Positions 45,699 through 51,242 of a stretch of 64,000 bases of DNA are shown here, piece after piece. Below the pieces are notes generated by a model. That model made no database searches. It was given only the letters and a program-made list of their open reading frames with translations, and was not told the DNA's origin. Made by a program: the position numbers and the translations under genes. The stretch is taken from positions 1 through 64,000 of the IMG/VR virus record IMGVR_UViG_3300031963_000016; one strand, written 5' to 3'. Each line of letters opens with the position of its first letter. The first letter of the stretch is position 1. The stretch comes from a virus.

Positions 45699-46308
45699 AC
45701 AATTTGCTCATCTATTTCCAAGAGCACAAGATCCACAAGGGTGGGTCAATTCAATGAATAATGTATTCCCAACATACGAAATTAATACACCCAATCGTAT
45801 TGCTGCATTCCTGGCACAATGCGGACATGAATCTGGTGGTTGGACAGTATTTGAAGAAAATTTAAACTATTCAGCAAAGGGATTGATGGGTATTTTTAGA
45901 AAGTATTTCCCAACAGAAGATCTAGCGAATGCTTATGCACGACAGCCTATGAAAATTGCCAATCGTGTTTATGCAAATCGTATGGGCAATGGTCCAGAGG
46001 AATCTGGCGACGGATGGTTATATCGTGGTCGTGGACCAATCCAGTTGACTGGAAAAGATAACTATCGTGCATTTGCAAAAGAAATGTTTGAAGATTGGGA
46101 AAATCTTTTTAATAATCCTGATTGGGTAAATGCAGATCGTGAGTTTGCTCTTATGTCTGCTATCTGGTTCTGGAATAAAAATAAATTAAATCGTGAAGCA
46201 GATGCTGGCGATATAAAAACGATGACTCGTAAAATCAATGGTGGTTTTATTGGTCTTGAAGATAGAATTAAACACTACAATGAGGCAATACATTTGCTAC
46301 ACGGATAA
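45685..46308 (+). CDS. GH19 chitinase-like endolysin
   Basis: 207 residues. Lysozyme-like GH19 fold: AAFLAQCGHESGGW (catalytic Glu), EENLNYSAKGLMGIF, then WLYRGRGPIQLTGKDNY and MSAIWFWNKNKLN. Cleaves peptidoglycan for lysis. No signal peptide, so a holin or similar is needed. The last base is shared with the exonuclease start. Confidence 0.95.
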   Translation: MLTAEQFAHLFPRAQDPQGWVNSMNNVFPTYEINTPNRIAAFLAQCGHESGGWTVFEENLNYSAKGLMGIFRKYFPTEDLANAYARQPMKIANRVYANRMGNGPEESGDGWLYRGRGPIQLTGKDNYRAFAKEMFEDWENLFNNPDWVNADREFALMSAIWFWNKNKLNREADAGDIKTMTRKINGGFIGLEDRIKHYNEAIHLLHG

Positions 46309-46961
46309 TGAAAACATTTATACATCATGATTTACCCAAACTTGAACGTGATACAAAACCCGATGGAACTCGTTTATACAAAACGCCATCGGGTTTGTCC
46401 TATCCAAGCGTCACAACGATTACAGGATTGCTTAACAAGAAAGCAATTTTTGAGTGGCGAAAAAGAGTCGGAGAAGAAGAAGCAAACCGAGTATCATCAA
46501 GAGCATCAAGCAGAGGAACGAAAGTTCACCAACTCTGTGAAGACTATCTCCGTGGAAAACTTAATGAACCAGATATCTTTCATAAAGAAATGTTCGATTC
46601 AATTCGACCACTACTCGACCAAATCGACAACATTCACTGCTTGGAAGATCCACTCTATTCTGACCATCTACAAGTCGCTGGAACAGTTGACTGTATTGCA
46701 GAGTTCCAAGGTAAACTTAGTGTTATAGATTTTAAGACTTCTTCTCGTCCTAAAAGTAGAGATGACATTCACAATTATTTTATGCAAACATCAGCATATG
46801 CAGTCGCCTTTGAGGAACGAACAGGAATTCCTGTAGGACGTATGGTAATTATCATGGCTGTTGAAAATGATGATCCACGTTGGTTTATCGAGAAACGAGA
46901 TAACTGGGTTGCAGGATTTAAAAAACTTAGACTTGACTACAAGCATAAGTATAATGTATAA
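46308..46961 (+). CDS. PD-(D/E)XK exonuclease (RecB/Cas4-type)
   Basis: 217 residues. HQLCEDYLRGK, then AGTVDCIAEFQGKLSVIDFKTSSR (D...DxK catalytic core) and QTSAYAVAFEERTG (Q-x3-Y motif) identify a RecB-family single-strand exonuclease. Nucleotide recycling or recombination role likely. The tmRNA promoter sits in its last 30 bp. Confidence 0.92.
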   Translation: MKTFIHHDLPKLERDTKPDGTRLYKTPSGLSYPSVTTITGLLNKKAIFEWRKRVGEEEANRVSSRASSRGTKVHQLCEDYLRGKLNEPDIFHKEMFDSIRPLLDQIDNIHCLEDPLYSDHLQVAGTVDCIAEFQGKLSVIDFKTSSRPKSRDDIHNYFMQTSAYAVAFEERTGIPVGRMVIIMAVENDDPRWFIEKRDNWVAGFKKLRLDYKHKYNV

Positions 46962-46962
46962 T
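46933..46962 (+). promoter_or_regulatory. Sigma70-type promoter of the tmRNA gene (TTGACT-18-TATAAT)
   Basis: -35 TTGACT at 46933-46938, -10 TATAAT at 46957-46962 (a second TATAAT at 46950-46955). Predicted start near 46969, just before the acceptor piece. Confidence 0.82.
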
Positions 46963-46968
46963 AGAGGA

Positions 46969-47282
46969 ATTGCTGTATGAAGCGATGAGAAAGGTGTTCT
47001 GGACGAGGGTTCGATTCCCTCCACCTCCACCAGAAGCATACTAGGACTGGCGTAAGCCATCGTGGGTATAGTTCCTTCCGAGCCACGGATTTAAGTATGC
47101 TTCTGATGGGGGTGACTAGGTTTCGACAGGGCAAGTAGTAACAAAGTGGACAGCACGACAGGCGATCGTCGTAAATGAAGCAAATAAAGTAAACGCAAAT
47201 GATGAGGTTTACGCACTAGCTGCCTAATTAAAAGGTAAGCAGGAGTTTCGGTGGGTTTCTTGGCAACAGAATAACCCACCAC
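46969..47282 (+). ncRNA. ssrA: Circularly permuted (two-piece) tmRNA
   Basis: Acceptor piece first: a T-arm (GAGGG-TTCGATT-CCCTC), then CACCTCC, A, and CCA ending at 47032. Coding piece second: GGGGGTGACTAGGTTTCGACAGGG starts at 47108, and its GGGGGTG pairs with CACCTCC to rebuild the tRNA-like acceptor. The tag frame, 47195-47227, encodes ANDEVYALAA and a TAA (E. coli ANDENYALAA). The intervening 47033-47107 is bounded by an exact 11-bp inverted repeat (47032-47042 / 47094-47104) and would be removed. A GGTGGGTT/AACCCACC hairpin closes the coding piece at 47250-47280. The RNA rescues stalled ribosomes. 5' and 3' limits of the precursor are approximate. Confidence 0.92.
47195..47227 (+). other. 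tmRNA tag reading frame (ANDEVYALAA)
   Basis: Resume codon GCA at 47195 to TAA at 47225-47227. The C-terminal ALAA is the ClpXP/ClpAP degradation signal, so tagged proteins should be degraded by host proteases; the only change from E. coli is Asn to Val at position 5. Confidence 0.93.
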
Positions 47283-47295
47283 TTATGGAGACACA

Positions 47296-48165
47296 ATGGA
47301 AAAATTTTATGTAGATGATTGTCCAAAAGAATTACCAGTAGCAGATTGGATTAAAAGTAAAATAAAATGGAGAGAAGCAACTAATGATGTCATTGCTTCA
47401 TCACCATCTGCAAAATATATGGACATGGTATTTGAATTCACAGGTGATCTGGATGGATTAAAAAAATCTGTGAGTGATGCATTAAGTACTTATGGTTTTT
47501 TTGGATGGAGAACATCAGTAGGTGATGAAAAGAATTATGGTGGATATTCTATAACTTATAATCCAAATCTACAATATGATGACCAGGATATTCATCAACA
47601 CACACTTGGTACTAAATTAAACGCACCAAGTGATTTCTATGCAGGATCGTCAGTAAATCACACGTATTTAAAAAATAGTTATCTTGATGGCATGTCATTC
47701 ACAGAGTTTACTCCAGCAGCAAAGATTGGCTACATGGGAAAATTATTAGAAGATATAAACAGTAGAATTACAATCACAAGAAGCAGATTAGGAATAGTTA
47801 AAGGATCTGAAGTCTCAGATGAAAATAGATATCATATAGATTCAGAAGTGTTTGAATTATGTAGATTGAATATTCCTATTATTGCAAATGAATGTTTTGC
47901 TTTTCAATTTCAAGGTAGATTACCATATGTTTTAGAAGAAGGAAGAGCATATACTTGGCAAACAGAATTACCCCATAGAGTTTATTGTCATAAGAAAACT
48001 AGTCTTGACAGAGCAAATATGGTGATAGGATTATCTCCTTGGTTAAGTTACGATAAACAAGAGAGATATTGGTACGCTAATGAGTTTTATGGAAAGAAAC
48101 ACCCATTTGATATGATTATAGATGGAGATGTTACTGATAAAATAAAATTTTTAGGTGCCAGATAA
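47296..48165 (+). CDS. Aspartyl/asparaginyl hydroxylase-like oxygenase
   Basis: 289 residues with a GGAG site. ENRYHIDSEVFELCRLNIPI (H-x-D), then a beta segment and TWQTELPHRVYCHKKTSLDRANMVIGLSPW (distal His, Arg) fit the Asp/Arg hydroxylase-like 2OG fold. Fourth such enzyme here. First gene after the tmRNA and perhaps transcribed with it, since no terminator separates them. Confidence 0.75.
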   Translation: MEKFYVDDCPKELPVADWIKSKIKWREATNDVIASSPSAKYMDMVFEFTGDLDGLKKSVSDALSTYGFFGWRTSVGDEKNYGGYSITYNPNLQYDDQDIHQHTLGTKLNAPSDFYAGSSVNHTYLKNSYLDGMSFTEFTPAAKIGYMGKLLEDINSRITITRSRLGIVKGSEVSDENRYHIDSEVFELCRLNIPIIANECFAFQFQGRLPYVLEEGRAYTWQTELPHRVYCHKKTSLDRANMVIGLSPWLSYDKQERYWYANEFYGKKHPFDMIIDGDVTDKIKFLGAR

Positions 48166-48280: not shown

Positions 48281-48448
48281 ATGAAAGCATTAATTACAGC
48301 AGTTATGATGACATTTGCATCAATTTCTTTTGCAGCCGATGCTAAAAAAGAAGCACCTAAAAAAGATGCTCCTAAAGCAGAAGTTAAGAAAGATGCTCCA
48401 AAGGCAGAAGTTAAGAAAGATGACAAGAAGCCAGCAGAGAAAAAGTAA
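48281..48448 (+). CDS. Small exported Lys/Ala-rich protein
   Basis: 55 residues: signal peptide (cleavage after FAA), then two copies of KDAPKAEVK and a KK-rich end. Highly basic mature peptide; could bind DNA, LPS or peptidoglycan outside the inner membrane. The 115 bp before it hold a GATACC/GGTATC hairpin and no gene. A similar protein lies at 49524. Confidence 0.7.
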   Translation: MKALITAVMMTFASISFAADAKKEAPKKDAPKAEVKKDAPKAEVKKDDKKPAEKK

Positions 48449-49036: not shown

Positions 49037-49527
49037 GAACAGCATTACTTGGAAATGGAAATAGTAGGATTCTTTATGAACCTAATCCTAACAAATATGA
49101 CTATGTTATCGGGTGTAATATTCCCTGGACTACAGTTGATGCTACTGTTATAATGGATGTGAATGTATTAGAAAAGTTTGATACTTTATGGAAATGCTAT
49201 ATCAGTAGAAAAGCGTGGATTGAATGTCCAAATAAAATAAAAGATAAAATAGTTGGATGTGTAATAGGATTATTTGAAACTGTACCTGACTATGATTCTG
49301 CAGGTCACGCTGCTTGTAGAAAATTATTAGAGCTAGGTTCGACTGAAATAGATATATATGGATGTGATTCTTGGTTTACAAACAATACTGATAGTTACAC
49401 TCATCAGTGGATTGATAGTAGATCAATAGATATGAGTAAGAATGTAAGTGTTTGGCGTGCTAGATGGTATGATCTTATTGCTAAACACTCTAATGTTAAG
49501 TTTAATTTTATAGGAGAAACTAAATGA
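49033..49527 (+). CDS. Rossmann-like protein of unknown function
   Basis: 164 residues starting with a nucleotide-binding-like LLGNGNSR loop, then YDYVIGCN and HAACRKLLELGSTEIDIYGCDSW. Similar in pattern to DUF115-type or glycan-modifying proteins, but the assignment is weak. Couples to the methyltransferase and to the next small exported protein (4-bp overlaps). Confidence 0.6.
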   Translation: MRTALLGNGNSRILYEPNPNKYDYVIGCNIPWTTVDATVIMDVNVLEKFDTLWKCYISRKAWIECPNKIKDKIVGCVIGLFETVPDYDSAGHAACRKLLELGSTEIDIYGCDSWFTNNTDSYTHQWIDSRSIDMSKNVSVWRARWYDLIAKHSNVKFNFIGETK

Positions 49528-49724
49528 AGTTACTACTCGGTTCATTAATTATGGCAGTTGCAATTACTGGATTTGCAGCAGAGCCAGCAAAGAAATCAGA
49601 TGCAAAACCAGTGGAAAACACTAATTGCGTAAAGAAAGATAAAGATGGTAAGTGTCCTCCACTACCAAAAGGTGATAAACCAACACCAAAAGCACCAGCC
49701 AAAAAGGAAGAAGCAAAGAAGTAA
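49524..49724 (+). CDS. Small exported Lys/Pro-rich protein
   Basis: 66 residues. Signal peptide (cleavage after GFAA), mature part rich in K, P and A with two cysteines, ending KKEEAKK. Resembles the exported protein at 48281 in design. Confidence 0.7.
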   Translation: MKLLLGSLIMAVAITGFAAEPAKKSDAKPVENTNCVKKDKDGKCPPLPKGDKPTPKAPAKKEEAKK

Positions 49725-50157: not shown

Positions 50158-50682
50158 ATGCGAATAAGAATCTATTCAATATTAATATTATTTTCAATAA
50201 GTTTTTCAATTATATTATATTCATATTTGTTTTTTAACGAGACAACAAAAGTTCTTAATATAGAACTGTCACAATTAACCAAAGACGCTAAGCAACAAGT
50301 TATTTGCTTGGCTGATAATATCTATCATGAAGCAGGATATGAACCTGAGAAGGGTAAGATTGCAGTTGCTCTTGTAACATTGAATAGAGTGCAAGATCCA
50401 CGATACCCAAAAGATATTTGCTCTGTAGTGAAACAAAAGGTAAACTATACATGTCAATTCACATGGTGGTGCGAAAATAAAATCACTAACAGAGAAAAAA
50501 TTGCATATGAAAAATCTAAAGAAGTTGCATTATATGTTTATGCAAATTATGAAAAAATAAAAGACTTCACAAATGGAGCATTGTTTTATCATGCTGATTA
50601 TGTTCGTCCGAATTGGAGAGGTTTAGAAAAAACCGCTGTAATAGGTAGACATATTTTTTATAAAGAGAAAGAAAAGTTATAA
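50158..50682 (+). CDS. SleB-family cell wall hydrolase
   Basis: 174 residues. N-terminal hydrophobic anchor or signal (about residues 5-27), then the SleB/CwlJ catalytic domain: LADNIYHEAGYEPEKGKIAVALVTLNRV, CSVVKQKV, CQFTWWC, GALFYHADYVRPNW. A second peptidoglycan enzyme besides the GH19 endolysin, perhaps exported for wall weakening or signal-arrest lysis. Confidence 0.88.
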   Translation: MRIRIYSILILFSISFSIILYSYLFFNETTKVLNIELSQLTKDAKQQVICLADNIYHEAGYEPEKGKIAVALVTLNRVQDPRYPKDICSVVKQKVNYTCQFTWWCENKITNREKIAYEKSKEVALYVYANYEKIKDFTNGALFYHADYVRPNWRGLEKTAVIGRHIFYKEKEKL

Positions 50683-51242
50683 TGTTAAACAAATTGAACA
50701 TTCAACTTAAAGAATCGCCAGATGCACAGCATTCCTTCTTTTTGTTGATGGAAGAAATATCATTAACTTCTGCTAAGCAAGTTGTTGAATGGATTTTTGA
50801 AACGAACTTTCAAGAAGAAAGACCAGACTTGCTTAATCTTATAATCACATCTCCAGGTGGTGATCTTAACGCAGCATTTGCTATGATTGATGCGATGAGA
50901 GGTTCTGCTGTTCCAATTAGAACAATTGGATTGGGACAGATTGCTTCTGCAGGTCTTATGGTTTTTATTGCTGGAGAAAAGGGAAGTCGTATTCTAACAC
51001 CAAACACATCAATTCTAAGTCACCAGTATTCTTGGGGTGCTTTTGGTAAAGAACACGAATTATTCGCAACTGTCAAAGAGTTCGATTTAACCACAAAGAA
51101 AATGATTACACACTATAAAAAGTGTACTGGTCTTAATGAGAAAAGAATTAGAGATGTTCTTCTCCCACCTCAAGACATATGGTTAAGTCCTCAAGAGGCA
51201 AAAGATATGGGGCTATGCGATGCAATTAAAGAATTATCTTAA
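50682..51242 (+). CDS. clpP: ClpP-type serine protease
   Basis: 186 residues. ITSPGGDLNAAFAMIDAM, catalytic Ser in GQIASAGLMVF, catalytic His in SILSHQYSWG, and QDIWLSPQEAKDMGLCD near the acid residue. Phage ClpP proteins are known in T4-like aquatic phages; the role may be protein turnover or prohead processing. Shares a base with sleB. Confidence 0.9.
   Translation: MLNKLNIQLKESPDAQHSFFLLMEEISLTSAKQVVEWIFETNFQEERPDLLNLIITSPGGDLNAAFAMIDAMRGSAVPIRTIGLGQIASAGLMVFIAGEKGSRILTPNTSILSHQYSWGAFGKEHELFATVKEFDLTTKKMITHYKKCTGLNEKRIRDVLLPPQDIWLSPQEAKDMGLCDAIKELS

Follow-up and report, generated by a model that had tools for sequence, protein, structure and literature searches.

Organization of the permuted tmRNA gene

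The window, i.e., the whole 64,000-nt stretch of DNA that was analysed (bases 1–64000 of a 161,711-base IMG/VR record), contains an intact, circularly permuted two-piece tmRNA gene downstream of an exonuclease gene (Table 1). ARAGORN called this gene as tmRNA* at 46940–47318 with the tag ANDEVYALAA (GCA-AAT-GAT-GAG-GTT-TAC-GCA-CTA-GCT-GCC-TAA), and the Rfam permuted tmRNA model RF04321 matched it over the full model length (positions 1–213; 149.8 bits, gathering score 47, E = 1.1e−29), with the alignment ending at 47227. The Rfam beta_tmRNA model RF01850, the best model of its clan, scored 137.3 bits (gathering score 84) and was aligned as far as 47293. ARAGORN and Rfam agreed on a permuted two-piece ssrA gene with the piece boundaries and the tag that had been proposed in an earlier, sequence-only reading of this DNA, and in the covariance search both models exceeded their gathering scores.

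The acceptor segment precedes the coding segment, and the acceptor strands CACCTCC and GGGGGTG pair with each other across the spacer, as had been proposed; they form an inverted repeat, and the stem types found in relatives are compensated. The window tmRNA has both the alanine identity pair G3-U70 and a CCA end, and its resume codon is GCA in the context TAAAC-GCA, a context that is conserved in relatives. The 11-bp perfect inverted repeat described around the spacer is also present and is common to bacterial permuted tmRNAs; it combines with the acceptor stem into 21-nt arms that are 90% complementary. The precursor folded better than 100 of 100 shuffled sequences (z = −3.35). No fitting ORF was found in the window's own spacer.

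Table 1. Features of the tmRNA locus in the window
Feature	Coordinates	Strand	Basis and remarks
Exonuclease, PD-(D/E)XK type	46308–46961	+	phrog_298; conserved upstream neighbour
Sigma70-like promoter, TTGACT-18-TATAAT	46933–46962	+	11/12 consensus positions; overlaps end of exonuclease gene
tmRNA gene, two-piece, permuted	46967–47285	+	Both gene ends approximate
Acceptor piece (5′ segment of gene), with helix strand	46967–47032	+	RF04321 alignment, motif parse; 5′ end approximate
T arm	47005–47021		Part of acceptor piece
Acceptor 3′ strand, CACCTCC	47022–47028		Part of acceptor piece
Discriminator A and encoded CCA	47029–47032	+
Intervening spacer, 75 nt	47033–47107	+	Predicted to be removed on maturation; inverted repeat, covarying hairpin in 73 relatives
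Spacer-closing hairpin	47032–47042 / 47094–47104		11-bp perfect inverted repeat
Coding piece (with D-like region, pseudoknot region and tag)	47108–47285	+	RF04321, RF01850, inverted repeat I6; 3′ end approximate
Acceptor 5′ strand, GGGGGTG	47108–47114		Part of coding piece
Tag reading frame, ANDEVYALAA and stop	47195–47227	+	ARAGORN
3′ stem of coding piece	47250–47257 / 47273–47280		Inverted repeat I6
ClpP-family serine protease, putative partner	50682–51242	+	PF00574, E = 2.7e−29; downstream neighbour

The record ends with a repeat of its first 127 bases, and the genome, of approximately 161.6 kb, therefore appears closed. The assignment to T4-like phages was upheld by homologues of gp20, gp21, gp23, terminase, gp55, gp45, gp33, and thyX of Methylophilales phage Melnitz, by Pfam matches to gp33 and gp59, and by PHROGs matches to gp32, PhoH, endolysin, and the exonuclease; among cultured phages, Melnitz has the closest gp32 (54.5%). 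ARAGORN detected 28 tRNA genes, i.e., 29 genes with the tmRNA, and the tRNA cluster (23.5–30.2 kb) lies approximately 17–23 kb away, so that the earlier description of the tmRNA as standing beside 29 tRNAs has to be corrected. The gene directly 3′ of the tmRNA (47296–48165, 289 amino acids) had no Pfam or PHROG match. Two mutually similar small proteins encoded nearby (48281–48448 and 49524–49724), also without a Pfam match, combine a signal-peptide-like start with Lys/Pro/Ala-rich tails.

The tmRNA gene had also been credited with its own sigma70 promoter. Taken alone, the window site is weak evidence, because six promoter-like sites were found in the region where 9.3 were expected. However, a sigma70-like site matching at least 10 of 12 positions occurs upstream of the tmRNA in 38 of 75 relatives, whereas 2.7% of background stretches have one; in the relatives, its distance is mostly fixed, at 53–57 bases before the T loop. 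Approximately half of the relatives have no recognisable promoter directly upstream, which we count against our preferred explanation; in those phages, transcription from further upstream is therefore likely.

Conservation among related phages and dependence on the host

A search with the exonuclease as the query yielded 80 related loci. In 72 of these, ARAGORN placed a permuted tmRNA downstream of the exonuclease gene, and Rfam found it in two more, several of the remaining loci ending too soon after the exonuclease for its presence to be judged. The 102 distinct phage tmRNAs that were compared have six acceptor-stem types, all fully paired; G3-U70 is present in every one of them, CCA is encoded in 96, and 85 have GTAAACGCA or GTAAATGCA as their resume context. 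All 102 tags end in LAA, and the middle of the tag varies (e.g., ANDAQFALAA, ANDSVYALAA, ANDELFALAA, and ANDNVWALAA). The spacer hairpin had a mean of 9.8 contiguous pairs in 73 phage spacers versus 5.1 when the arms were swapped between loci, and none of 500 shuffles of the arms reached the observed pairing, although the compared sequences share kinship and the shuffles serve as a guide rather than a strict test. The bacterial beta-type genes covary likewise (9.3 versus 5.3 pairs), so that the inverted repeat can be regarded as usual for this permuted RNA type.

These sequence patterns indicate that the tmRNA gene is maintained under selection in the 102 phage copies and that this uncultured T4-like phage lineage carries the two-piece tmRNA as a standing gene; it is a fixture of a widespread lineage rather than a stray acquisition. 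The gene might instead be a host ssrA remnant that was gained by recombination and is useless to the phage, as ssrA fragments have been found in prophage genomes (PMC9004378), but an intact gene with compensated changes, conserved at one place across the whole lineage, leaves this explanation scarcely credible.

A search for SmpB (PF01668) was negative for the closed genome and for 12 related records, and neither SspB nor a ClpX/A-type ATPase (AAA_2) was found in the closed genome. Host factors are therefore needed: SmpB, RNase P, AlaRS, EF-Tu, and ClpX/ClpA must be provided by the host. The earlier suggestion that the phage supplies its own ribosome rescue consequently holds for the RNA, which has all the parts for tagging, but not for these proteins, and the dependence implied by the missing SmpB is counted against our preferred explanation. 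A phage without SmpB would compete for that of its host, and its RNA could be a decoy that competes with the host tmRNA for SmpB and the ribosome and so blocks host trans-translation; the tag-less tmRNA reported for phage DS6A is a precedent (PMC11915505). Such a decoy would need none of the tag, resume context, CCA, and G3-U70, all of which are kept under selection, and we consider it very unlikely.

A ClpP-family gene downstream of the tmRNA

In the window, a gene for a ClpP-family protein lies approximately 3.4 kb from the tmRNA. Its product matched solved ClpP chains (E = 2.7e−16), and the triad Ser89, His114, and Asp165 is invariant in 22 ClpP-family sequences; the AlphaFold model of the phage protein is of low confidence (mean pLDDT 49). 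A role as the head protease was rejected, since gp21 adjoins gp20 and gp23.

A ClpP-family gene was present in all 13 records searched, and in 66 of the 72 exonuclease-anchored loci it follows the tmRNA on the same strand, 1.06–2.97 kb downstream; only one anchored tmRNA locus (L071) has no ClpP despite at least 4 kb of sequence. When the search was anchored on ClpP, a permuted tmRNA was found 0.9–2.6 kb upstream in 51 loci, most of the others being cut too close upstream to judge its presence. Meanwhile, phages that share the tag and were found irrespective of the exonuclease often have no ClpP (11 such loci, each with 4 kb or more of downstream sequence); the link between tmRNA and ClpP therefore belongs to the lineage of the window. 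Within 10 kb of the closest cultured ClpP relatives, those of cyanophage BUCT-ZZ01 and a Sinorhizobium phage, there is no permuted tmRNA, suggesting that part of the link may be an inherited neighbourhood. A literature search on a tmRNA–ClpP link in phages returned nothing relevant.

The tmRNA and the phage ClpP may be working partners, and a stronger proposal would be that the tmRNA chiefly marks proteins for a protease that includes the phage ClpP-family subunit, with directed proteolysis, over ribosome rescue, as the selected function. The presence of ClpP in all 13 records, its same-strand position less than 3 kb downstream of the tmRNA in 66 of 72 loci, and its invariant catalytic residues favour this proposal, as does the separate gp21 head protease, which means that the head needs no ClpP. 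However, the genome has no ClpX/A-type ATPase; the ClpP gene of BUCT-ZZ01 follows an exonuclease gene without any tmRNA, so that proximity may be inherited; and Melnitz (MZ577097) has a tmRNA with no ClpP match in 30–141.5 kb, whereas the lineage of the window has ClpP. On this balance, directed proteolysis as the selected function is possible but rather doubtful. In either case, the steady ClpP neighbourhood makes phage steering of SsrA-tag proteolysis testable.

Putative protein genes nested in the spacers of relatives

Of 88 distinct phage spacers, 13 (L008, L009, L013, L019, L026, L031, L038, L054, L059, L073, L092, L110, and L124) contain an ATG frame of 23–64 codons that begins 9–14 bases beyond the CCA and whose terminal TGA stops one base short of the coding piece. 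When the spacers were shuffled, 1.0 such frame was obtained on average, with a maximum of four in 1000 trials. An SD-like motif occurs in the 5′ part of 10 of the 13 spacers, the same part that contains the hairpin's 5′ arm. Homologues of the 64-codon frame of L013 (L391–L405) occur partly inside the tmRNA spacers of other phages and partly (L401–L405) outside any called tmRNA, and the changes among them fall mostly at the third codon position (e.g., 3 changes at position 1, 2 at position 2, and 19 at position 3). On these grounds, the nested frames look like real protein genes. The same 64-codon gene is also nested in L400 (1396–1920), a phage tmRNA whose T loop and tag (ANDNFFALEDNRLAA) both resemble the alpha type; its occurrence in both alpha-like and beta-type tmRNAs suggests that the gene, or the flanking tmRNA parts, was exchanged between lineages. 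A search of the literature for ORFs in tmRNA spacers found nothing relevant, and within the literature searched there was no report of protein genes that exactly fill tmRNA spacers, as in these relatives. In the 142-nt spacer of Melnitz (L147), an SD-like GGAG is present, and an ATG frame is open to the spacer end and continues into the coding piece.

Taken jointly, these observations and the ClpP linkage could be combined into a tag-and-degrade module in which the phage tmRNA and ClpP are kept together to act on the same products and, in some relatives, the spacer is a nest for small phage protein genes; the ribosome-binding site of the nested gene would lie in the processing hairpin, so that processing and translation would control each other. 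We propose this combination tentatively and regard it as unlikely to hold in full.

Proposed mechanism

We conclude that the window gene is, with high probability, a working circularly permuted ssrA of a T4-like phage, in which rescue and tagging depend on the host. The steps proposed below for processing, charging, delivery, tagging, and degradation are drawn from established tmRNA biology. A single precursor would be transcribed from the tmRNA gene; host RNase P would cut the 5′ end of the coding piece, host enzymes would trim the 3′ end to CCA, and the hairpin spacer would be lost, while the acceptor stem, together with the helix beneath it, would keep the acceptor and coding pieces joined. 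The tmRNA would then be charged with alanine by host AlaRS via G3-U70, and host SmpB and EF-Tu would deliver it to stalled ribosomes, where the tag (A)ANDEVYALAA would be appended to the stalled product. The tagged product would be degraded by host ClpXP or ClpAP, possibly including the phage ClpP-family subunit. As a benefit to the phage, ribosome turnover might continue during infection, and incomplete proteins might be recycled or their amino acids recovered.

Comparison with known tmRNAs

The sequence-only reading had treated a permuted tmRNA in a T4-like phage as a surprise, but such genes have been known since 2022, when Melnitz was reported to carry a two-piece ssrA and two-piece forms were called for 53 of 133 distinct phage tmRNA structures, most of the 53 coming from marine or aquatic phages (PMC9004378); the window gene therefore adds to an already known kind. 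The roles proposed for phage tmRNAs were to keep the translation machinery running or to recycle host proteins (PMC9004378), and a tmRNA database of 2025 contains 79 phage sequences (PMC11915505). We found no description, in the literature searched, of the lineage-wide conservation, the beta type at this position, or the ClpP neighbourhood.

Judged from the ranking of RF01850 within its clan and from a tree of 101 mature sequences, the tmRNA of the window lineage is of the beta-proteobacterial type. In the tree, which has long branches and incomplete bootstrap convergence and should be read with caution, one side (99/98) comprised the phage and beta-proteobacterial genes, and another (99/98) comprised Melnitz and the alpha-proteobacterial genes; one common origin for the phage copies was neither shown nor rejected (AU p = 0.175). 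The nearest bacterial genes in the tree identified no host, and beta-type permuted genes scored above the cut-off in 12 of 300 genomes sampled from one order and in 26 of 200 sampled from one family. Like the beta-proteobacterial permuted tmRNAs, the window gene is matched end to end by RF01850 and has a hairpin spacer, and their tags include ANDESYALAA and ANDENFALAA, which resemble its own. The beta-type placement in the tree (99/98) agrees with acquisition of the gene from a bacterium whose two-piece tmRNA was functional. In contrast to those genes, it is carried by a phage without SmpB, and phage spacers are longer (median 76 nt) than the beta-proteobacterial ones (mostly 24–50 nt). The putative one-piece tmRNAs of Stenotrophomonas phages share only about 65 matching bases with the window gene, in the T-arm region (80% match).

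The SsrA tag of E. coli is AANDENYALAA; with the charged alanine, the phage tag becomes AANDEVYALAA and differs from it by one residue, whereas the window gene differs from E. coli ssrA in being permuted and two-piece. The exact tag ANDEVYALAA occurs in 46 viral loci and in only six bacterial genome stretches, four of which were called by ARAGORN, all as one-piece genes; the tag was therefore rejected as an indicator of the host.

Melnitz offers a close parallel. This Kyanoviridae T4-like phage likewise has a permuted two-piece tmRNA between PhoH/PDDEXK nuclease genes and gp33/gp59/gp32 (in the order PhoH, nuclease, tmRNA, gp33, gp59, thyX, and gp32). However, the Melnitz tmRNA has the tag ANDNYVPVDYALAA and groups with alpha-proteobacterial genes (99/96), whereas that of the window groups with beta-proteobacterial genes (99/98). 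At a comparable gene position, one phage group thus carries an alpha-type tmRNA and another a beta-type tmRNA, so that two tmRNA lineages have come to occupy it by replacement or by separate gains.
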